Shown here: piece by piece, positions 613-14,491 of the stretch
Numbering within the stretch: the stretch's first letter is position 1
Layout of the letters: every line of letters starts with the position of its first letter
Assembly: GCA_947471035.1 (NCBI GenBank)
Contig: CANIWJ010000022.1
Coordinates: 1-41,301, forward strand
DNA from: Verrucomicrobiota bacterium
GTDB lineage: Bacteria; Verrucomicrobiota; Verrucomicrobiia; Opitutales; Opitutaceae
DNA length: 41,301 nucleotides
Direction of reading: 5' to 3'
Translations under genes and position numbers: made by a program
Notes under the pieces: generated by a model
What the model saw: the letters and a program-made list of their open reading frames with translations, nothing else
Databases searched by the model: none
What the model was told of the DNA's origin: nothing

Positions 613-628
613 AGGTGGGTACCCACCT
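613..628. repeat. Perfect 16-bp palindrome at the 3' end of the RHH gene
   Basis: AGGTGGGTACCCACCT reads identically on both strands and has no spacer. It touches the TGA stop (628-630) of the ribbon-helix-helix gene. No T-run follows on the minus strand, so a simple terminator is not supported. A binding or recombination site for the neighbouring RHH protein or serine recombinase is possible. Confidence 0.55.
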
Positions 629-876
629 CAAATTTCAAGGTCACCCGTGTCCCCGTCCCCCCCTCCAGTGGGCCGTTCATTTAATTTATCGGCAACGAGT
701 TCGCCAGCGGAGAGAAGGTATTCCGAAACACTCATCCCCAGTGATGCCGCCACCGCTTTAAATCGGTCTTTCCGTTCCGGTGTTACACGTATCTGAATCC
801 ATTGGCTGCGCAAAATCTTTTGAGCAACTTCTTGTTCAGTGATAACAGGTAGAACTTTACTTTCTGGATTACTCAT
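628..876 (-). CDS. Ribbon-helix-helix DNA-binding protein, MobC-like
   Basis: The 82-residue protein starts at the ATG at 876, which overlaps the TGA of the serine recombinase as ATGA, so the two are translationally coupled. A single ribbon-helix-helix fold is visible: beta strand WIQIRVTP (about 26-33), then helix ERKDRFKAVAASLG, turn, and helix SVSEYLLSAGEL (about 49-60). The pattern of a VTPE-type strand end followed by an S-x-S-E-Y-L helix is typical of plasmid mobilisation accessory proteins (MobC type) and of small repressors. The tail after residue 68 is Gly- and Asp-rich and encoded by a C-rich tract. Family knowledge suggests it binds a short palindrome; an autoregulatory or relaxosome-like role is inference. 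Confidence 0.75.
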   Translation of the reverse strand: MSNPESKVLPVITEQEVAQKILRSQWIQIRVTPERKDRFKAVAASLGMSVSEYLLSAGELVADKLNERPTGGGDGDTGDLEI

Positions 877-1559
877 GCTGCTAAAAGTTTTGCTTCTCTC
901 TCTAGGATAAACTTTACCGTGGCTGGATACCATTTGCCACCGTACTTAGTTTTCATTCCCGACGATTCTAGTTTATTTGCAATCGCACTTAACTTAGCAC
1001 CTTCGGATTTCCAGTTTTGTATCTGGCGTATAGTTAATTGCTCCTCTGGATTTGGAATAAGACTCTCTCCGTCAGGTGCTAGATCGTAACCTAGCGGGAT
1101 GCGTGAAGATATTTTCTTATTCATTGTTCTCATGTAAGTCATTGCCCCGCACGTTCTTTCCGACAAAAGTGATTTTTCAAACTCAGCTAAAGAAATAATT
1201 AGGGTAAAAAATAGACGCCCCACGGCGCTGTTCGTATCAATTTTTTCCGTCAAGGACGCAATGTGGGCACCGGCTTTGTTGATCCGATCACTAATCTGAA
1301 GAGTGTCGCGGATATTTCGGCTTAACCGTGAAAGGGAATATATAACCAACACGGCTTGTTCACGACACGTCAAATCAAGGGCATTCATAATCAGTGGACG
1401 ATTCGACATCTTTCCACCGCTCATGCTTTCTGAAAATGATCCAATTATTTCATATCCATGTAGTTCACAAAAAATTTTAGCTCTATGCAACTGGACATGA
1501 TGACTTACATTTTCAGATTGTTCTAGAGTTGAACAGCGAGAATAGATTACGGCCTTCAT
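873..1559 (-). CDS. Serine recombinase (resolvase/invertase family)
   Basis: I chose the ATG at 1559 because the protein then begins MKAVIYSRCSTLEQ, the usual start of a resolvase domain. It is 228 residues long. The catalytic serine is Ser10 in the RCST motif, with Arg8 beside it. The YSLSRLSRNIRDTL stretch carries the conserved active-site arginines. The C-terminal part (about 140-215) has the pattern of a short Recombinase domain: an IPLGYDL segment, then LIPNPEEQ, a helix with GAKLSAIANKL, and a KYGGKWY segment. It is much shorter than large serine integrases. It could resolve, invert or integrate DNA of the island. It is coupled to the downstream RHH gene by a 4-base overlap. Confidence 0.9.
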   Translation of the reverse strand: MKAVIYSRCSTLEQSENVSHHVQLHRAKIFCELHGYEIIGSFSESMSGGKMSNRPLIMNALDLTCREQAVLVIYSLSRLSRNIRDTLQISDRINKAGAHIASLTEKIDTNSAVGRLFFTLIISLAEFEKSLLSERTCGAMTYMRTMNKKISSRIPLGYDLAPDGESLIPNPEEQLTIRQIQNWKSEGAKLSAIANKLESSGMKTKYGGKWYPATVKFILEREAKLLAA

Positions 1560-1838
1560 GTATTGAAGGAAAACAATACGCCTGTTGCGTGTCAATTTAA
1601 ATTCGTAGTGATTTCAAGCAATACCTTAATTCTTCAACTTTTAAAAGGGTTCCCTTATCTAGTGCTTTTGTGGTCATTTTTTACCCAAATCACGGTCTCA
1701 TTAAGGAATCCACGCATCAAATGCTATCAATTTACATTAGTGAGTTGGGTTAAAAGGTGGGGACATGTTGGTGATTATCGGTCTGCAATTGGGGGGACTC
1801 CCCCCATTATATGCACAAAGGGCCATTTATCCCATACC
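1560..1838. other. 279-base gap with a G6/C6 hairpin
   Basis: No convincing gene is seen here. GGGGGG-ACT-CCCCCC at 1791-1805 forms a compact hairpin downstream of the polymerase-like gene, without a T-run. The promoter of the serine recombinase should lie near 1560-1640 on the minus strand, but I see no clear consensus boxes. A 115-codon plus-strand reading frame here looks accidental. Confidence 0.4.
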
Positions 1839-3329
1839 TTATGCCATTACGAAAAAATCATCATACTGAGTAGCATTATCCAACTCCTCTTTTCTTATCT
1901 GCAATTCTAGTACCTCAATATTTTTATTAACACTCGATATTGCGCATTGGTGGTCACTTACGTCTTCACCATTTCGACGTTTTTCATTTCTTATCTTTTT
2001 CAAAAACCAAAGTGTAAACTCCAGCAGCATCTTACGTTCATGACCTTTGGCACGAGGCATGTATTCAGTCGCAATTATAGTGGTTCTTTTTCTTGTGCTA
2101 TCCTCTTCACTCAGCGGACTCGATTTAAATTTAATGTACTTATAGTCTTTCAGTAATACAACTATCATGGCATTCAATTGTTCGATGTTTTCCTTCAAGC
2201 AAAGAAACCCATCGTGTTGTCTAATAAGTGGAATCCCCAGCGTAATACACTCGCGTATTAATCGACACAGTAACTCAGTTTCTACATCTTCCAATTCCCT
2301 CCACACTTCTTCTTTTTTACAAATAAAATCGGCCATCTCAGTAAACCCTCTCTTGCGGAGTAGTGCAGTGAATGGATGTTTTATCTTTATAGACTTTTTT
2401 AAGTTTATATATTTACCGAATTCGATCTTTAGAATATCTCGATTTAAACTAAGACCATCACCAATTATTGAGTAGAAGTCTGATTTGTTTGAAGGACACA
2501 TATGTCCTCCCTCCTCCCCTCCCCCCCCTCTCCCCCCTGTTTGATTATTGTAAATTTTTTCCATCAAAAAAGAAGGATACGCACAAGTAATATCGAAGTT
2601 AACTAAATTATCCTTACCATCGTAACGTAAATACTTCTTAAACTGATTCTTGAGCACTACAGAGTTAAAATAAAACCGAGTTGATTCATCCTGAGTAGCC
2701 GGAATGAAATTACCATTGTTTATACGCTCGCACATATACGAATAATACCCCGTCCACTCATCATCTATTTCGTCTATAGCCGATTCATCCAGAGAAAGTT
2801 TTCGCTCAAAATTCAAACAATAGAGTAGTTCAGCGTCATGTTTTGATTTTGGAGTGAAGACTAGGTTGCCATCTATCAACCCATCAGAAATTAACTTACT
2901 TTGCTCCCATACAATTACCTCGAACTGGTGTTTTTTGGTGAATCTATACTTTTTACAGAACGCTTTGCACTCACCTCCGGTAGAGTACGAAAAATTACCG
3001 GTTTTATCGGAAAGAAATGGTTCAATTAGTTGATTGTCATGAATAAAGTAATCCAAAAACTTGTTGTAATTACTTCCAGCCGTTAATCTAAAGGTTTCAC
3101 GCGAAATCGGTACAAACTCATTATCCTCGAACTCGCCATTCTTTATTTGAAGAATCTGGATTATTGATAATACCCTCAATGCTGCAAACCTTTCCCCATC
3201 CTTGGTAAAGTCTTTGAGCACTCTTTCTACCGCTCCAACTGGTACATAGAAATGGTATGTATTTCTTTTAATGCGCATTCCATCTGGAACGCAGCGAATC
3301 CGACACTGCACAGTAATTTTGTTTTTCAT
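1839..3329 (-). CDS. Putative replication protein with palm-polymerase-like motifs
   Basis: A 496-residue protein that I cannot assign to a named family. Three segments resemble a polymerase palm. Residues 242-253 read LVNFDITCAYPS, like motif A (Asp246 followed by a YPS as in family B polymerases). Residues 346-365 carry a helix with LEDVETELL. Residues 366-377 read IPLIRQHDGFLC, like motif C of family A polymerases (His-Asp 372-373). From memory, uncharacterised mobile-element proteins with a D-I-x-N-S-Q-P motif and a later H-D-S share this order. No exonuclease or primase motif is visible. A Gly/Glu-rich insert (264-275), encoded by a G-tract, follows motif A. The gene is divergent from the small gene at 3535 across a palindrome-rich region. 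A role in replicating the island is inference. Confidence 0.6.
   Translation of the reverse strand: MKNKITVQCRIRCVPDGMRIKRNTYHFYVPVGAVERVLKDFTKDGERFAALRVLSIIQILQIKNGEFEDNEFVPISRETFRLTAGSNYNKFLDYFIHDNQLIEPFLSDKTGNFSYSTGGECKAFCKKYRFTKKHQFEVIVWEQSKLISDGLIDGNLVFTPKSKHDAELLYCLNFERKLSLDESAIDEIDDEWTGYYSYMCERINNGNFIPATQDESTRFYFNSVVLKNQFKKYLRYDGKDNLVNFDITCAYPSFLMEKIYNNQTGGRGGGGEEGGHMCPSNKSDFYSIIGDGLSLNRDILKIEFGKYINLKKSIKIKHPFTALLRKRGFTEMADFICKKEEVWRELEDVETELLCRLIRECITLGIPLIRQHDGFLCLKENIEQLNAMIVVLLKDYKYIKFKSSPLSEEDSTRKRTTIIATEYMPRAKGHERKMLLEFTLWFLKKIRNEKRRNGEDVSDHQCAISSVNKNIEVLELQIRKEELDNATQYDDFFVMA
2506..2538 (-). repeat. Poly-G tract inside the polymerase-like gene
   Basis: On the coding (minus) strand this is a run of G-blocks separated by single A residues, including a block of eight Gs. 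It encodes the GGRGGGGEEGG insert of the polymerase-like protein. Runs like this are slippage-prone, and four or more G-blocks could form a quadruplex. Confidence 0.7.
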
Positions 3330-3373
3330 AGTGATGATTTGTTGCGTATGACAAACAAAGATTGTTCTTTTAA

Positions 3374-3413
3374 TGAATTACTGGAATGGGGATCAATCCA
3401 TTCCAGTATTTCA
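3374..3413. promoter_or_regulatory. Large inverted repeat in the divergent promoter region
   Basis: TACTGGAATGG (3379-3389) and CCATTCCAGTA (3398-3408) are a perfect 11-bp inverted repeat around an 8-base spacer. After one T/T mismatch the arms extend by four more pairs (TGAA/TTCA). It lies 45 bases upstream of the start of the polymerase-like gene and upstream of the small gene at 3535. It is a good candidate for an operator or a replication origin element; which of these cannot be told from sequence. Confidence 0.65.
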
Positions 3414-3517
3414 AACAAACCTCACCTATCATACTGTATAGATAAATATCGCATGAAAAACGAAACGGTGAAAAAACTTACTAGATCGTAGAATGTTTTC
3501 AGTGGAATCGACATAAT

Positions 3518-3533
3518 TTGGATATTTATCCAA
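3518..3533. promoter_or_regulatory. Palindrome abutting the start codon of the 3535 gene
   Basis: TTGGATA and TATCCAA form a perfect 7-bp inverted repeat with a two-base centre, one base before the ATG at 3535. No Shine-Dalgarno sequence is visible; the palindrome occupies its place. It could be an operator, or an mRNA hairpin that limits initiation. Confidence 0.55.
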
Positions 3534-3534
3534 T

Positions 3535-3786
3535 ATGAAAAATCATACCGATCCTACTCCACTGGCAGTCTTGCAACAACTCGACCGCATGCTCCAAGAA
3601 ACCTCTAGTATTAAAAAAGATTCTAAGAAAATTGAACAGGTCATTCACAATTATGATGACTACATTTTTTCAGAAAACACTAATTTCGACGCGGATCTTG
3701 AGTTCAAGAAATTCTGGATGCGTGAATCCTTGAAGCGAAGCAGGGAGAAGAATAAAAAAGATTCTGAACCAAATCCAGAAGCGTGA
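3535..3786 (+). CDS. Small charged protein of unknown function
   Basis: An 83-residue protein with no recognised domain. The first half looks like an amphipathic helix or coiled coil (about 12-38, LAVLQQLDRMLQETSS and on). A short aromatic-acidic middle (YDDYIF) follows, then a strongly basic helix (about 62-78) and an acidic tail. It is divergent from the polymerase-like gene. The palindrome touching its start codon, the larger inverted repeat upstream and a possible terminator after it support a real transcription unit. A DNA-binding regulator or accessory replication protein would fit the context, but no motif proves it. Confidence 0.55.
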   Translation: MKNHTDPTPLAVLQQLDRMLQETSSIKKDSKKIEQVIHNYDDYIFSENTNFDADLEFKKFWMRESLKRSREKNKKDSEPNPEA

Positions 3787-3803
3787 TATGTCAAAGAACG
3801 TGA

Positions 3804-3840
3804 CTGCTACTAATGAGGTTTAGCTATAGCAGAGTTTTTT
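3804..3840 (+). terminator. Possible intrinsic terminator after the 3535 gene
   Basis: CTGCTA (3804-3809) pairs with TAGCAG (3827-3832) across a 17-base loop and is followed two bases later by six Ts (3835-3840). It sits 18 bases after the stop of the small gene. The stem is short and the loop large, so confidence is modest. Confidence 0.4.
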
Positions 3841-3859
3841 GATAACTCAATACAATTAC

Positions 3860-3876
3860 GGAAAATGTTATTTTCC
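3860..3876. repeat. 7-bp inverted repeat upstream of the sirtuin gene
   Basis: GGAAAAT and ATTTTCC form a perfect inverted repeat around GTT, in the 187-base gap before the sirtuin gene. It could be an operator; no -35 or -10 boxes are clear around it. Confidence 0.35.
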
Positions 3877-3973
3877 AGATGGTTTATTTTGGGGTATTAA
3901 AACGCAGATGGATTTTTATAGAAAAACAGATTAGTTTATTTCCAGACCTCGCTAGAAGTGCTATTGCTTGACC

Positions 3974-4666
3974 ATGAAGATCGTTGTTTTAACCGGAGCG
4001 GGTGTCAGTCAACCCAGTGGAATTAAAACGTTTAGAGACGCTGGTGGACTATGGGAAGGTCATCGAATCGAAGACGTTGCTAGTCCCGAAGGGTGGAAGA
4101 AGAACCCACAGGTAGTATTGGACTTCTACAATGCTCGCCGCACCCAACTTGCAACCGTTGCCCCTAACGCTGCGCACATCGCTATTGCCGAGTGGCAGGT
4201 AAAGCATGATGTTACGGTCATCACCCAAAATGTTGACGACCTGCATCAACGAGCTGGTTCTAAGAACGTTATCCATCTCCACGGTGAATTGACCAAAGCT
4301 AGGAGCACCATTAACAGTGACTTAGTACAAGATATTGGTTATCAAGAAATAAAAAATGGAGACGTAAGCAAATACGATGGTAGTCAACTACGACCTCATA
4401 TCGTTTGGTTTGGTGAAAATGTCTCACTAATGGAAGAAGCGCATAACATTACAAAGACAGCAGATGCGTTCATTGTCGTTGGGACATCGTTGCAAGTTTA
4501 CCCAGCGGCTGGATTATTGGAGTTTGCTCCGAAAAACTCTTTTAAGGTTTACGTTGATGCTAAACCGGACATTGGACTATTGCCGCCAGACTTCCACACT
4601 ATCACCAATTCCGCCGAGATTGGCGTGCCATTACTTGGGGCGCATCTGGATAGGGTAAACCGCTAG
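3974..4666 (+). CDS. Sir2-family NAD-dependent protein deacylase, zinc-less type
   Basis: A 230-residue sirtuin, full length for a bacterial single-domain enzyme. I start at the ATG (3974) rather than a TTG two codons earlier. The NAD site GAGVSQPSGI (8-17) with TFRDAGG, the TQNVDDLH loop (84-91), catalytic His103 in HLHGEL, and the GTSLQVYPAAG segment (170-180) are all present. Tyr52 and Arg55 in FYNARR match the acyl-pocket pair that in CobB and SIRT5 favours succinyl- and malonyl-lysine. The four zinc cysteines are missing, and the protein has no cysteine at all. It stands alone as island cargo. Protein deacylation is expected from the family; a role in element maintenance or defence is not shown. 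Confidence 0.92.
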   Translation: MKIVVLTGAGVSQPSGIKTFRDAGGLWEGHRIEDVASPEGWKKNPQVVLDFYNARRTQLATVAPNAAHIAIAEWQVKHDVTVITQNVDDLHQRAGSKNVIHLHGELTKARSTINSDLVQDIGYQEIKNGDVSKYDGSQLRPHIVWFGENVSLMEEAHNITKTADAFIVVGTSLQVYPAAGLLEFAPKNSFKVYVDAKPDIGLLPPDFHTITNSAEIGVPLLGAHLDRVNR

Positions 4667-4793
4667 ATCACTCAATTTTTTAGACTTGGGTTCTCACACG
4701 GGATTGGTATCTAGGACTTTTCAGGAAATAAGTAATACATCATAGCGGCGATTAACTTTAACTTATATACTAGCCGACAACATAATACATGAC

Positions 4794-5075
4794 ATGAAAA
4801 TTACAAGCAAGCTCAAGTCCGACATCAATAACTTTTCTGTATTTGCCCATAATTCAATCGAATGGGTTTGGGCGCATGAAAATAAAGACTATAAACTGGG
4901 TGGATTTGAATCTGTTTATCACGCAATTACTAAATTCATTTACGAAAATTCTGATCAAGGCATCAATTTTACTATCAGGGACATCGAAATTGCCCTCAAA
5001 TTGAATTCAGTGAAGCATTGCCCGAAGCCATCGGCAATTGAACGTCGAATTATCCGTTTGATGAAGAAATGTTAA
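4794..5075 (+). CDS. Small protein of unknown function
   Basis: A 93-residue protein without a recognised domain. It has an aromatic middle (NSIEWVWAHE at about 21-30), then a region resembling a winged-helix or HTH fold: YHAITKFIYEN (41-51), FTIRDIEIALKLNS (59-72), and a basic C-terminal helix SAIERRIIRLMKK. That resemblance is only by eye. It follows the sirtuin gene on the same strand after a 127-base gap that holds no clear promoter or terminator. The base composition is that of the island. Confidence 0.55.
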   Translation: MKITSKLKSDINNFSVFAHNSIEWVWAHENKDYKLGGFESVYHAITKFIYENSDQGINFTIRDIEIALKLNSVKHCPKPSAIERRIIRLMKKC

Positions 5076-5251
5076 AAATTGTTAGTGTTTTTCTTCCTTT
5101 GCGAAGACACGGTAAATGCGATATTTATTCCCTGCCAGTATATCTAACATGGTATTGACGAAATAACGCCGGAAATCACCATTGGGCGATGATTGGAGGG
5201 TGGTATGATGTGAGACGAAGTATTTTTGTAGGGATGTATAGGTTGTAATAC
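5076..5251. other. Convergent gap of 176 bases
   Basis: This lies between the small gene ending at 5075 and the integrase stop at 5252. I see no gene, no strong palindrome and no convincing terminator. Short A- and T-runs near 5075-5095 do not form a supported hairpin. Confidence 0.4.
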
Positions 5252-6580
5252 TCAATTCTTGCTATTTTCTTTCACCCTCTCCGCATCGTCATCCACGGAG
5301 TCCGGTGCATCTTCTAACGGCATTGCATCTTTTTCTTCTTTGGTAAGTATAGCAATCGGTTCGTTTTTTAATTGCTGATACAGTGATCGTAATCTTAGTT
5401 TACTTCCAACCTCGAACCATGCCTTAGCTTCAAGGTGATTAGAAAGTTCCTTGTAGTTAGTTTCTATCGTATCGGCGGAATTTCCAGCGCCCAATGAAAC
5501 CCTTCCAATGTCGCCAGTTAATTCTAACTGATGTGTAATGAATGAATGGCGAAGTGTGTTAGTATGCCATTTGATGCCTTCTTTTTTTGCAATCCGTGTT
5601 AATATACGTTGGACGTCTTCATATTCGGTGAGTTTTCCGTTTTTCTTTCGTTTGATCCATTTGAATAAATTCTTAAGGGAGTCCGTTATCTGCAAACCTC
5701 GCCGTCTTTTCATTTTGGCGCTTCTTGGTGGCACATATATTGAAAGCAGATTGCCTTTGTCGTCGTATTTAATGTTTTCCCATGTGAGTCGTTTAAGTTC
5801 CGATACGCGAATCCCAGTGAATGCCTCCAGTCCTGCAACTATCAATAATTGGTCTTTGTCTGGGCGGTCGCATGCACTGACTAATATTTTCATCAAATCG
5901 GATGATGGCATTAGTTTATTAACGTAACCCTCAGATGTTTCTTCTGGGTATGGTTTAACTTTTTCTAAAATATGAGGATTTCGCTCCGATACGAATTGGT
6001 TGTGCTTAGCCCAATTAAAAAACCCCTTGATGCTATTAAGTCGGTTATTTTTCGTTCGTCCGTTACTGTATCCTTTTGCCACATAACTAAGCACTTCATC
6101 TCGTTTGAGTGACGACATCATTCTTTTTCCGAATTTCTTGGATAGTCCGCCCACATGCAATCGAATGTCCTTTTTGTGGAATTCACCGACGTGCTTCTTG
6201 TCTTCAGTGAATCTCACGAATGCGTCCTTAACTGAAGTTTCTTTAATATCGGGTTCCCAGTTTTCCATGAACCGCGCAACCACCTGCTGAAGGGTTAATT
6301 TTGTGGGCAGAATTTGTCTTTGAATGTCAAGCATCATTTCACGCTCAAGGACCGTTATTCCGGCAAGCTCGCTTCTGCCCTCGCTAATCAATTTCGCGAT
6401 TTCTTCCGCTCTTAAACGGGCCTCATCGCGATCCCTTTTGAATTCAGTTCGTTTTTCTCCACCTTCAAACCAAGCAATGCGGTAGCTGACATATTTTCCG
6501 CCTACTCCACCTTTCACGGTGTAAATTGAGACTGAAACTGAACCGTGGGTAACTTTTACGACAGGACTCGTTTTCTTCAC
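5252..6580 (-). CDS. int: Tyrosine recombinase / integrase
   Basis: A 442-residue tyrosine recombinase starting at a GTG (6580). The N-terminal part (about 1-90) looks like an arm-binding and linker region. A SAM-like core-binding domain follows (about 92-200, with NNRLNSIKGFFNWAKHN). The catalytic domain holds Arg258 (TGIRVSELKRL), a lysine hairpin (289-291), Arg344 in NTLRHSF, and Tyr376 in IETNYKEL. Box II has Asn in place of the usual His (NTLR for HxLR), and the usual GHS is GNS. Both changes occur in integrases I associate with Verrucomicrobiota and Planctomycetota. The gene starts 64 bases from the tRNA-Gly 3' end and reads away from it, as expected for a tRNA-targeting integrase. Confidence 0.93.
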   Translation of the reverse strand: MKKTSPVVKVTHGSVSVSIYTVKGGVGGKYVSYRIAWFEGGEKRTEFKRDRDEARLRAEEIAKLISEGRSELAGITVLEREMMLDIQRQILPTKLTLQQVVARFMENWEPDIKETSVKDAFVRFTEDKKHVGEFHKKDIRLHVGGLSKKFGKRMMSSLKRDEVLSYVAKGYSNGRTKNNRLNSIKGFFNWAKHNQFVSERNPHILEKVKPYPEETSEGYVNKLMPSSDLMKILVSACDRPDKDQLLIVAGLEAFTGIRVSELKRLTWENIKYDDKGNLLSIYVPPRSAKMKRRRGLQITDSLKNLFKWIKRKKNGKLTEYEDVQRILTRIAKKEGIKWHTNTLRHSFITHQLELTGDIGRVSLGAGNSADTIETNYKELSNHLEAKAWFEVGSKLRLRSLYQQLKNEPIAILTKEEKDAMPLEDAPDSVDDDAERVKENSKN

Positions 6581-6644
6581 GTCGTAAATCTGTCGTAATT
6601 TCCTTTTTGAGCGAAGGATTTTCTTCTTTTGCCTCTAGGAAAGT

Positions 6645-6672
6645 TGGTGCGGGCAGAGGGAGTCGAACCCTC
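6645..6672 (-). other. Probable attachment site in the tRNA-Gly 3' end
   Basis: The composition changes sharply at the tRNA, and the integrase gene lies just beyond its 3' end, so the crossover core should be within the T-arm and acceptor stem. The tRNA stays intact, CCA included, as is usual after such insertion. The partner repeat is not in the window, so the exact core is not defined. Confidence 0.5.
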
Positions 6673-6719
6673 TTCTCATGCTTGGGAAGCACACATAATA
6701 GCCGGTATACTATGCCCGC
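6645..6719 (-). tRNA. tRNA-Gly (anticodon CCC)
   Basis: On the minus strand the acceptor arms GCGGGCA (6719-6713) and TGCCCGC (6655-6649) pair fully. The D-arm region carries AGTATACCGGCTA. The anticodon stem TGTGC/GCATG encloses the loop TTCCCAA, giving anticodon CCC (glycine). The T-arm is GAGGG-TTCGACT-CCCTC. The discriminator A and an encoded CCA (6647-6645) follow. It is the insertion target of the island to its left. Confidence 0.95.
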
Positions 6720-11347: not shown

Positions 11348-13324
11348 ATGTGCGGAATCGCCGGTTTTATTTCCCTTCGTCACCCCGCCTCCACCCGTGA
11401 GGCCGCACTCGCGCGCATGCTCGACGCCCAGCGCCAACGCGGGCCGGACGACGAAGGCAGCGTTACCCAGGGCCCTGCCACCCTCGGCATGCGCCGCCTC
11501 GCGGTTTTCGACCCCGCCAACGGCCACCAGCCCATGATCTCACCCGATGGCCGTCACCATCTCGTCTTCAATGGCGCCATCTATAATTTCCGTCCCTTGC
11601 GCGCCGCCTACGCCCAGCGCGGCTGGGCTTTTCGCACCGAGTGCGACACCGAAGTCCTGCTCGCCGCCCTCGCGCTCGACGGTGTCGTCGCGCTCCCCAG
11701 CCTGCGCGGCATGTTCGCCTTCGCTTGGTGGGATGCCCGCGAAAAAACCCTCCTCCTTGTCCGTGATGCCCTCGGCATCAAACCCCTGCTCTACCACATC
11801 GACCCGGTCGGCCCACTCCTCTTCGCCTCCGAATCGCGCGCCCTGCTCGCTTCTCGCCATGTGCCGGGCGAGCTCGATCCCGCCGCCGCCGCCGAATTCC
11901 TCCGCTGGCAATCCGTGCCCGCCCCCCGCACCTTGCATGCGGGCGTGCGTTCCTTGCGCCCCGGCGAACAACTCCGTTGGCACGACGGACGCAGCGAAGT
12001 CTCCGCCTGGTGGACGCCCGCCGCCTGCCTCGCCACCGCCCACCAACGCCCCGGCCTGCCGCCTCCGGCCGCTTCCACCACTGAACTTCAGACCCAGTTG
12101 CGTGCCCGCCTAGAAGATTCCATCCAGGCCCACATTGCCGCCGATGTTCCGGTGGGCACCTTCCTCTCCGGCGGACTCGACTCCGCCATCGTCACTGCGC
12201 TCATGGCCCGCCAAGTCGGCCCCGACCGCGTGCAGACATTTTCCATCGGCTTTGAGGAAAACGCCTTCTCCGAAACCACCGAAGCCGCCGCCACCGCCCG
12301 CCACCTCGGCGTCGCGCACCACACCCACATCCTCACCGGTGCCGCCGTAGCCGGAGATTTGGACAACATTCTCGCCACCCTCGACCAACCCACCGGCGAC
12401 GGCCTCAACACCTACTACGCCGCCCGTTTCGCCCGCGCCGGTGGCCTCACCGTGGCTCTCTCCGGACTCGGGGCCGATGAACTCTTCGGCGGCTACCCCG
12501 CGTTCCGCCGCCTGCCCAAGCTCGCCCGCTGGCTTCCGCGCTGGGCCCTCATACCCGCCCCGCTGCAACGCACCCTTCTCGGCTTGTTAGACGCGCGAGG
12601 CACCGCCGCCCGCAAACTCGCCGACACTCTGCGCCTCGGCAACGACCTCACCGACGTGGCCCTGACCCAACGCCAGGTTTTCTCCACCAGCGAAATCTCC
12701 CGCCTGCTCGCCCCTCCGTCCTCCTCCCAAGCCTCGAGTAACCTATTAGGTTACTTTTCGCCCGGTTCCCAACTCCTCCATCCCGCCGTCCCTGAAATCC
12801 GCGCCGCTTGGGAAGCCGCGCTCGCCAACCGCCCCACCGAGGCACCACTTCCCCTGGCCCTGCTCGCCAGCCTTGCCGAAACCCGTGGCTACATGACCGA
12901 CGTGCTCCTGCGAGATGCCGACGAATTCAGCATGCGTCACTCCCTGGAGTTGCGCGTGCCCTTCCTCGACTTGCCCTTAGTCGACTGGGCCTGGGCGCAA
13001 GACCCCGCCCTGCTCCACCCCTCCGGTGCCGCGCCCAAATCCGTCCTCTCCGCCGCCTGCGCCGACCTGCTACCCCCTGCCCTGCTGACCCGCCAAAAAC
13101 GCGGCTTTACCCTGCCCTTCGCCCGCTGGCTGCGTGGTCCCCTTCGCCCGTTTATGGAAGATACGCTCAGCTCCGCATCAGTCGGCCGCTGCGGACTTTT
13201 CGACCCTTACGCCGCCGGCAAACTCTGGCGCGCTTACCGCGACGGCTCGGACGACCGCGCCTGGTCCCGCGTCTGGTCCCTCGCCGTGCTCATCCACCTC
13301 GCCAACCGCTCTCCGACACACTAG
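11348..13324 (+). CDS. asnB: Asparagine synthase-type amidotransferase
   Basis: A 658-residue glutamine-hydrolysing amidotransferase of the asparagine synthase family. After Met removal Cys2 (MCGIAGF) is the glutaminase nucleophile. RGPDDEG and the LVFNGAIYNF segment belong to the class II glutaminase domain (about 1-200). The ATP-pyrophosphatase loop SGGLDS is at 274-279, and LSGLGADELFGGYPAF follows. AsnB-like enzymes are frequent in exopolysaccharide loci, where they may amidate a sugar acid rather than make asparagine. The stretch 455-475, encoded around a palindrome at 12737-12755, is poorly family-like and may be an insertion. Its TAG stop lies in a CTAGCCCA repeat unit. Confidence 0.95.
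   Translation: MCGIAGFISLRHPASTREAALARMLDAQRQRGPDDEGSVTQGPATLGMRRLAVFDPANGHQPMISPDGRHHLVFNGAIYNFRPLRAAYAQRGWAFRTECDTEVLLAALALDGVVALPSLRGMFAFAWWDAREKTLLLVRDALGIKPLLYHIDPVGPLLFASESRALLASRHVPGELDPAAAAEFLRWQSVPAPRTLHAGVRSLRPGEQLRWHDGRSEVSAWWTPAACLATAHQRPGLPPPAASTTELQTQLRARLEDSIQAHIAADVPVGTFLSGGLDSAIVTALMARQVGPDRVQTFSIGFEENAFSETTEAAATARHLGVAHHTHILTGAAVAGDLDNILATLDQPTGDGLNTYYAARFARAGGLTVALSGLGADELFGGYPAFRRLPKLARWLPRWALIPAPLQRTLLGLLDARGTAARKLADTLRLGNDLTDVALTQRQVFSTSEISRLLAPPSSSQASSNLLGYFSPGSQLLHPAVPEIRAAWEAALANRPTEAPLPLALLASLAETRGYMTDVLLRDADEFSMRHSLELRVPFLDLPLVDWAWAQDPALLHPSGAAPKSVLSAACADLLPPALLTRQKRGFTLPFARWLRGPLRPFMEDTLSSASVGRCGLFDPYAAGKLWRAYRDGSDDRAWSRVWSLAVLIHLANRSPTH
12737..12755. repeat. Palindrome inside asnB
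   Basis: AGTAACCT and AGGTTACT form a perfect 8-bp inverted repeat around ATT, followed by TTT. This AT-rich patch stands out inside the GC-rich coding region and encodes SSNLLGYFS. It may be a small inserted repeat unit. Confidence 0.55.
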
Positions 13325-13398
13325 CCCATTAGCTTATCCCCTTTACTAGCTTACCAGCTCCCCCCGCTTACTAGCTCCCGCTCCCCCCGCTCCCGCCC
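13321..13398 (+). repeat. CTAGCTTA and CCCCGCT-type repeats between asnB and the GT4 gene
   Basis: The whole gap is degenerate repeat: CTAGCCCA, TTAGCTTA, CTAGCTTA and CCAGCTCC units pass into GCTCCCC heptamers that run up to the ATG at 13400. The first unit supplies the asnB stop codon. Confidence 0.8.
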
Positions 13399-13399
13399 T

Positions 13400-14491
13400 A
13401 TGAAAGCCGTGCTGCTCGCCCCCGATTTTACCGGCACCGGCGGCGTGCAGCGTATTTTGCGGCTCTACCTCGATGCCATGGCCGAGGACCCCACCCATGG
13501 CACCTTGACGCTGGAATCGCTCAACGACTCCACGGACCATTTGGCGTCCTATCCCGCCGCCACCACAGGCATTATTAAAGGCAAACCACTCAAAGCCCGC
13601 GCCCACTCCCGCTCCAAAACCAGCTTTATACACGCTGCTTTGAGTGCCTGCGCCCAAGCCAACCGCATCGTTTGCGGACACATCGGACAACTCCCCGTGG
13701 CCGCTTTTGCCGCTGGTCGTTCCACCCGCCTAGCCCTCGTGGCGCACGGCATCGAAGTCTGGCAGCCCGCCTCCTTGCTCCGCCGCCTGGCCCTTCGCCG
13801 CTGCGACCGGATTTTTTGCGTTTCGCATTACACCCGCGACCGCCTCGCAACCAATCACCCCGAACTCAAGGCCCGTCTGCGCGTGGTGCCCAACGCCCTC
13901 GACCCCGCCCTGCTCTCCCGCCCAAAGCCCTCGCCTCCACCGCTCGACCACCCCCCCACCGTTCTGTGCGTCGGCCGCCTCAGCGCCGCCGATGCCTACA
14001 AAGGCTACGACCTGCTCCTGCGCGCCTTCGCCCTCCTGCCCCACGCGGCGTTTTATCACCGGCCCGCCTTGCTACCTAGACTGCGTTTCGTGGGTGAGGG
14101 CGACGATCTTGCCCGCCTGCAACAGCTGGCCATCGACCTTCATGTCGCTGATCGGGTGGAGTTTTCCGGCCGCCTCTCGGACCCCGATCTCAGCCGCGCC
14201 TTCGCTGACTGCACCTGCTTCGCCCTCCCTAGCTCCGGCGAAGGCTTCGGCTTGGTTTACCTTGAAGCCCTTGCCGCCGGGCGCCCCTGCGTCGGTGTGC
14301 GCGCTGGAGCCGTGCCCGAGCTCATCACTGCCGAGGCCGGCACCCTGGCCGCGCCCGACGACCCCGCCGCCCTCGCCGCCGCCCTAACCGATTGCCTTAT
14401 CCGGTGCTGGGATCCGGGCGACCTCCGCAAACTTGCCCGCCCCTACAGTTACGACCACCTCGTCACCGCCCTAGCCACCGCCTGGTATTAA
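13400..14491 (+). CDS. Glycosyltransferase family 4
   Basis: A 363-residue GT-B-fold transferase. The N-terminal half begins MKAVLLAPDFTGTGGVQR, the usual glycine-rich acceptor-side loop, and has VAHGIEVW near 115 and a linker with FCVSHYTRD. The C-terminal half has VLCVGRLS and GEGFGLVYLEALAAGRP, the E-x7-E motif that contacts the sugar nucleotide. Activated sugar and linkage cannot be read from sequence. It is predicted to be cytoplasmic at the membrane. The gene starts right after a repeat array and is followed by a 101-base gap, so it may end a sub-operon with asnB. Confidence 0.93.
   Translation: MKAVLLAPDFTGTGGVQRILRLYLDAMAEDPTHGTLTLESLNDSTDHLASYPAATTGIIKGKPLKARAHSRSKTSFIHAALSACAQANRIVCGHIGQLPVAAFAAGRSTRLALVAHGIEVWQPASLLRRLALRRCDRIFCVSHYTRDRLATNHPELKARLRVVPNALDPALLSRPKPSPPPLDHPPTVLCVGRLSAADAYKGYDLLLRAFALLPHAAFYHRPALLPRLRFVGEGDDLARLQQLAIDLHVADRVEFSGRLSDPDLSRAFADCTCFALPSSGEGFGLVYLEALAAGRPCVGVRAGAVPELITAEAGTLAAPDDPAALAAALTDCLIRCWDPGDLRKLARPYSYDHLVTALATAWY

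Follow-up and report, generated by a model that had tools for sequence, protein, structure and literature searches.

Mobile elements and viruses carry minimal polymerases of the A family known as TV-Pols (Iyer, Abhiman and Aravind, 2008; PMC2579912), which are recognised by a hairpin arginine ahead of motif A, an RxxxK signature in the fingers and freedom from nuclease fusions; their genes often adjoin gamma-delta resolvases or integrases, and one subset is linked to a D5-like helicase (PMC2579912). As of 2020, CcPol of the SCCmec element was the sole biochemically characterised TV-Pol; CcPol-MP is an unusual primase, making primers de novo only together with the partner protein MP (PMC7581432).

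We analysed a DNA stretch of 41,301 nucleotides from a Verrucomicrobiota bacterium (the window), in which a 496-aa protein is probably a TV-Pol-type minimal A-family polymerase of an island integrated at tRNA-Gly, likely replicating the excised circle (Table 1). The open reading frame, its two motifs and the numbering of Asp246 and Asp373 proved to be as the earlier note had given them, with LVNFDITCAYPS at residues 242–253 and IPLIRQHDG at residues 366–374. Judged by its sequence, the protein carries the features listed for TV-Pols in PMC2579912: R218 corresponds to the hairpin arginine, which is expected to touch the template given the role described there, R297-DIL-K301 forms the RxxxK of the fingers, and scans against Pfam, PHROGs and NCBIfam found no nuclease domain. 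The recombinase neighbours expected of a TV-Pol are likewise present, as a serine recombinase and a tyrosine integrase.

Table 1 Features of the island and its integration site (window coordinates).
Feature	Position	Strand	Evidence
Ribbon-helix-helix (NikA/MobA-like) gene, after the recombinase	628..933	(-)	PF21983 E 4.9e-7
Short serine recombinase, resolvase and truncated Recombinase domain	873..1595	(-)	PF00239 E 3.2e-29, PF07508 E 8.8e-10
Predicted A-family (TV-Pol-like) polymerase gene, 496 aa	1839..3329	(-)	Profile without its own sequence, E 5.2e-10; fold matches at residues 157-405
Motif C, GIPLIRQHDGF, with H372-D373	2205..2237	(-)	H and D invariant
Motif B (fingers), RDILKIEFG, R297-x3-K301, F304, G305	2415..2441	(-)	Conservation in relatives
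Motif A, LVNFDITCAYPSFL, with D246	2565..2606	(-)	D246 and P252 invariant
R218 codon, hairpin Arg	2676..2678	(-)	Invariant, 32/32 relatives
Inverted-repeat region between the divergent genes, possible operator or origin	3330..3534	.	
83-aa ORF, divergent from the polymerase	3535..3786	(+)	Sub-threshold PHROG single-strand-binding match, E 0.023
Sir2-family gene, island cargo	3968..4666	(+)	PF02146 E 4.5e-43
Tyrosine integrase	5252..6580	(-)	PF00589 E 9.5e-11, phrog_1 E 2.1e-26
39-bp attachment core	6640..6678	.	Identical copy at G000:C120:5356-5394
tRNA-Gly (CCC), integration target	6645..6719	(-)	

Searched alone, the 496-aa protein gave nothing significant against Pfam, PHROGs, NCBIfam, PADLOC or PDB sequences, and tblastn against plasmids and phages returned chance matches only, the Acidovorax one lying among conjugation genes in a cluster. 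No homologue was found in 141 related genomes, and protein-centred scans of contigs, viral and genomic, yielded no relatives. We performed a bridge search for the ordered motifs in islands around relatives of the window's serine recombinase and integrase, and this gave one new protein of 400 aa in a genome of the same order (G108), at a locus where a tyrosine integrase and also a serine recombinase of 210 aa are encoded. In BLASTP it is colinear with the window polymerase from the hairpin arginine to motif C, a match that is weak taken alone. The G108 protein has relatives in huge phages, and a three-sequence profile built from these proteins retrieved 52 loci in IMG/VR and one in genome G186, where the relative belongs to a prophage: an integrase lies next to it, and the genes that come after it resemble terminase and portal genes by eye. 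The search for relatives and their neighbourhoods proposed in the earlier note found a group in huge phages and, beside integrases, in a prophage and an island.

Homology was measured with the window protein left out of the profiles. The three-sequence profile scored it at E 1.6e-6 among 3,688 ORFs, and the profile of 32 diverse relatives gave it 36.9 bits (E value in Table 1), whereas none of 5,000 shuffles scored above 12.3 bits; the controls were ORFs from the collected loci and the shuffles. These results clearly indicate that the motifs picked out by eye did not arise by chance. The stretch scored by the profile runs from residue 55 to 265, which extends the homology to the N-terminal region; motifs B and C, beyond that stretch, were positioned by multiple alignment. 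In that alignment R218, D246, P252, Y286, K301, E350, H372 and D373 are invariant across the relatives, including both metal-binding aspartates (D246 in motif A, D373 in motif C). Within motif B, K301 is conserved in all 32 relatives, F304 in 31, G305 in 29 and R297 in 24.

The unnamed phage, prophage and island group (L095, L097, L098, L099–L150 and L152) shows profile homology to the window polymerase in the palm as well as the N-terminal region, with identical catalytic residues and similar motif A-to-C spacing; it differs in overall sequence (15–21% identity), and the window protein has a longer C-terminus and departs from the group at two otherwise fixed sites, reading CAYP for NSQP and QHDGF for THDSI. 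The same QHDGF is present in plasmid TV-Pols. Between motifs A and B, the window polymerase carries a Gly/Glu-rich insert, GGRGGGGEEGG (about 2490–2540 on the minus strand, about residues 265–280), that is poorly modelled and missing from the relatives. An unannotated PHROG, phrog_4756, matches two relatives, and apart from it the group is in none of the libraries searched. In one huge phage (L098), the relative (2878–4041) overlaps a second, true DNA_pol_A gene (4038–5324; 428 aa, Pfam E 1.2e-19), so two A-family enzymes with different jobs are possible in one phage, perhaps one a primase and the other a polymerase.

We modelled the protein with AlphaFold, obtaining a pLDDT of 31.7 from the single sequence, too low for use, and a mean of 64.8, with about 85 in the palm, when 22 relatives were supplied. 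The model places the end of a strand at D246, helices at residues 250–264 and 339–364, and a strand right after D373; the part of the fingers that follows motif B is short, with pLDDT under 50 for residues 289–317, and an extra helical C-terminal region follows residue 405. Foldseek ranked apicoplast Pol and Taq at the top (E 0.05–0.2, none below 0.05). In a second fold search, nearly every row that covered residues 157–405 was either a mitochondrial RNA polymerase or an A-family DNA polymerase, at Z 7–9.3 over about 215 aligned residues; Z values of 7–9 are modest and single ones can be non-specific, and we place weight on the consistency of the rows and on the sequence evidence. Fold matches of residues 405–490 were ignored as unrelated long helices, and profiles searched against PDB sequences gave spurious rows only, with no A-family match. 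Since homologues went into the model, it and the profile result are not independent of each other. Together, the homologue profile, the invariant catalytic residues and the predicted fold support a thumb-palm-fingers structure of the A-family class over residues 157–405, and bear out the palm-bearing polymerase that the earlier note had proposed. The predicted layout is an N-terminal accessory region followed by thumb, palm and fingers, with no nuclease domain, and membership of the A-family superfamily (Pol I/T7-RNAP class), as a divergent and minimal member, is supported by sequence and model. The label of unknown family held insofar as the subgroup is unnamed in Pfam, and gave way insofar as the protein places in the A-family superfamily and is TV-Pol-like.

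The gene lies in a block of low GC, with a drop from 0.65 to 0.39 (0.36–0.43 over 1–6 kb of the window, 0.62–0.68 from 7 kb on), and the tyrosine integrase abuts tRNA-Gly. The 3' end of this tRNA gene has a single further copy in the genome, a perfect 39-bp block on contig C120, at a point where GC drops from about 0.66 to 0.43; no tRNA gene was found on that contig. Host DNA lies to the left of the C120 copy and to the right of the window's tRNA-Gly, and the two 39-bp sites therefore face each other correctly. The island seen spans at least 10.5 kb (3.9 kb on C120 and 6.6 kb in the window), with its middle unassembled. The integrase, an intact tRNA at one end, a partial copy at the other and the GC steps support an integrative island in tRNA-Gly and strengthen the earlier note's reading of a tRNA-integrated mobile element. 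The earlier note's remark that no primase, helicase or exonuclease is visible applies to the two assembled pieces, in which no helicase, D5-like or other, and no SSB was recognised; this absence proves nothing, because the middle of the island is unassembled.

The polymerase, short serine recombinase and ribbon-helix-helix genes are co-directional. The recombinase has a 48% identical homologue in genome G015, where, by eye, a similar small gene also comes after it. Upstream of the polymerase, the palindromes across which a small divergent gene had been noted were confirmed, with 16-nt arms at 3374–3389/3398–3413 (94%) and a perfect 10-nt pair at 3441–3450/3521–3530; they may serve as an operator or origin. 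Small ORFs and the Sir2 gene occupy the rest of the island piece in the window. Integrases adjoin the polymerase relatives in the G108 island and the G186 prophage, and likewise a TV-Pol in genome G352.

For comparison with TV-Pols, we took MAP_030 of Microcystis phage Ma-LMM01, which has transposase genes as neighbours, to be the published example, an identification of our own made from its motifs and position. A tblastn search with MAP_030 led to TV-Pols encoded by plasmids of Calothrix and Polaromonas, among them a 7.2-kb plasmid on which the TV-Pol accompanies ParA, RepA and a short serine recombinase. By eye, these plasmid proteins share SGRLY, [ND]YDIxNC and QHDGF with the window polymerase, which was the best non-member for one TV-Pol profile (E 0.1 among 2,127 ORFs, weaker once further members were added).

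Several of the TV-Pol genes found carry other labels or none. Those of the small Polaromonas glacier plasmids, at 37–1653 of L055 (NZ_MG869627.1) and 3787–5292 of L037 (NZ_MG869621.1), are labelled hypothetical or 'Clp protease N-terminal domain' and occur with ParA and short serine recombinases, and that of Calothrix plasmid L038 (AP018296.1), which spans the start of the circular record (12620–13693 and 1–483), is unannotated. In G352, of the same phylum, genes for a 452-aa TV-Pol, an HTH protein and a tyrosine integrase stand in a row (L070, 6838–8196 and 9283–10539, both minus strand), a layout resembling that of the window, and no helicase was recognised there. A 543-aa ORF with SLSGRVF, WYLDYSGCEFHVL and IPLHDGW, adjoining a repressor-like gene (L072, 796–2427, minus strand), is perhaps another A-family polymerase. 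A 387-aa ORF in genome G161 (L075, 853–2016, minus strand) has GGRIYATG, HDYDLKNCQPSIL and CFDGLVV, and its motif style suggests that the contig is a eukaryotic or viral contaminant.

The gene could instead serve the replication of a prophage, degraded or satellite, and the element would then not be an independent island, a reading that we consider possible, if somewhat unlikely. Most relatives are phage genes, the G186 relative and an adjacent integrase are part of a prophage, and the middle of the element is unassembled; against this, neither the 6.6 kb in the window nor the listed ORFs of the 3.9 kb of C120 showed a recognisable capsid, portal, terminase or tail gene, a check in which part of the island ORFs was scanned against family libraries. 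It is rather improbable that the protein has decayed or been repurposed and has ceased to synthesise DNA, for instance by turning into a regulator or into part of a defence system alongside the Sir2 gene. Sir2 proteins are often anti-phage defence proteins, one is encoded in the same island, and the altered residues at otherwise fixed positions, the long insert and the extra C-terminal helical region would fit such a change; however, the metal-binding aspartate pair, hairpin arginine, motif B lysine, Glu350 and motif C histidine are retained in an intact reading frame, QHDGF is known in plasmid TV-Pols too, and PADLOC gave no match for the polymerase or the Sir2 gene.

The earlier note had read the two motifs as a mix seen in no family it could name; by eye, DxxxxYPS resembles motif A of family B polymerases. 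The idea of a mix is not supported, as a motif A of the form [NE]-[FIY]-D-I then P, together with an HD-type motif C, is ordinary for TV-Pol-like A-family enzymes, and the protein has no component from family B. That it is a genuine family B polymerase or a hybrid of A and B is extremely improbable: the relatives, hairpin arginine, RxxxK, HD motif C and fold matches are all of A-family or T7-RNAP type, no search returned a family B match, and the family B models of Pfam, PHROGs and NCBIfam gave none to the 496-aa protein at E values up to 10.

Our best guess for the TV-Pol-type A-family polymerase is that it would be the island's own replication polymerase, and perhaps a primase, because of the analogy with TV-Pols and CcPol-MP. 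The tyrosine integrase would excise the island at the 39-bp tRNA core, and the polymerase would prime and/or extend DNA synthesis on the excised circle, aided by the host's replication proteins or by a helicase whose gene would lie in the unassembled middle. Resolving multimers or helping excision may fall to the short serine recombinase with its ribbon-helix-helix partner. A bolder and unlikely proposal is that the group forms a separate stand-alone A-family primase-polymerase lineage of huge phages, prophages and tRNA islands, which would need neither a D5 helicase nor an SSB partner to start replication and would find the origin through its own N-terminal region. This kind of polymerase is already known; the largely phage-borne subgroup was not found described in a narrow literature search, and we make no claim of first discovery. 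An unannotated group of many huge phages and of islands and prophages in related bacteria is placed in the A-family superfamily with its catalytic residues named, which makes its function directly testable, and a second, distant lineage beside CcPol would show the generality of CcPol-type priming (cf. PMC7581432).

Like CcPol-MP of SCCmec and the PolA-SSB primases (PMC7581432, PMC10061031), the window polymerase is an A-family enzyme of an integrative island with a serine recombinase; those systems use a large serine recombinase at rlmH or ssrA, whereas this island has a tyrosine integrase into tRNA-Gly and, in the pieces seen, no identified OB-fold SSB gene or helicase. With T7-like and mitochondrial RNA polymerases and Pol I (Taq, Bst and apicoplast Pol) it shares the predicted thumb-palm-fingers over residues 157–405, but it has no significant sequence similarity to them, is far smaller and is without exonuclease or promoter-binding domains. 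Profiles of the Ma-LMM01, Polaromonas, Calothrix and G352 TV-Pols reach it weakly, yet with TV-Pols it has in common the minimal A-family core, the hairpin arginine, the two aspartates, RxxxK, the absence of a nuclease, and a mobile element with a resolvase-type or lambda-type recombinase.
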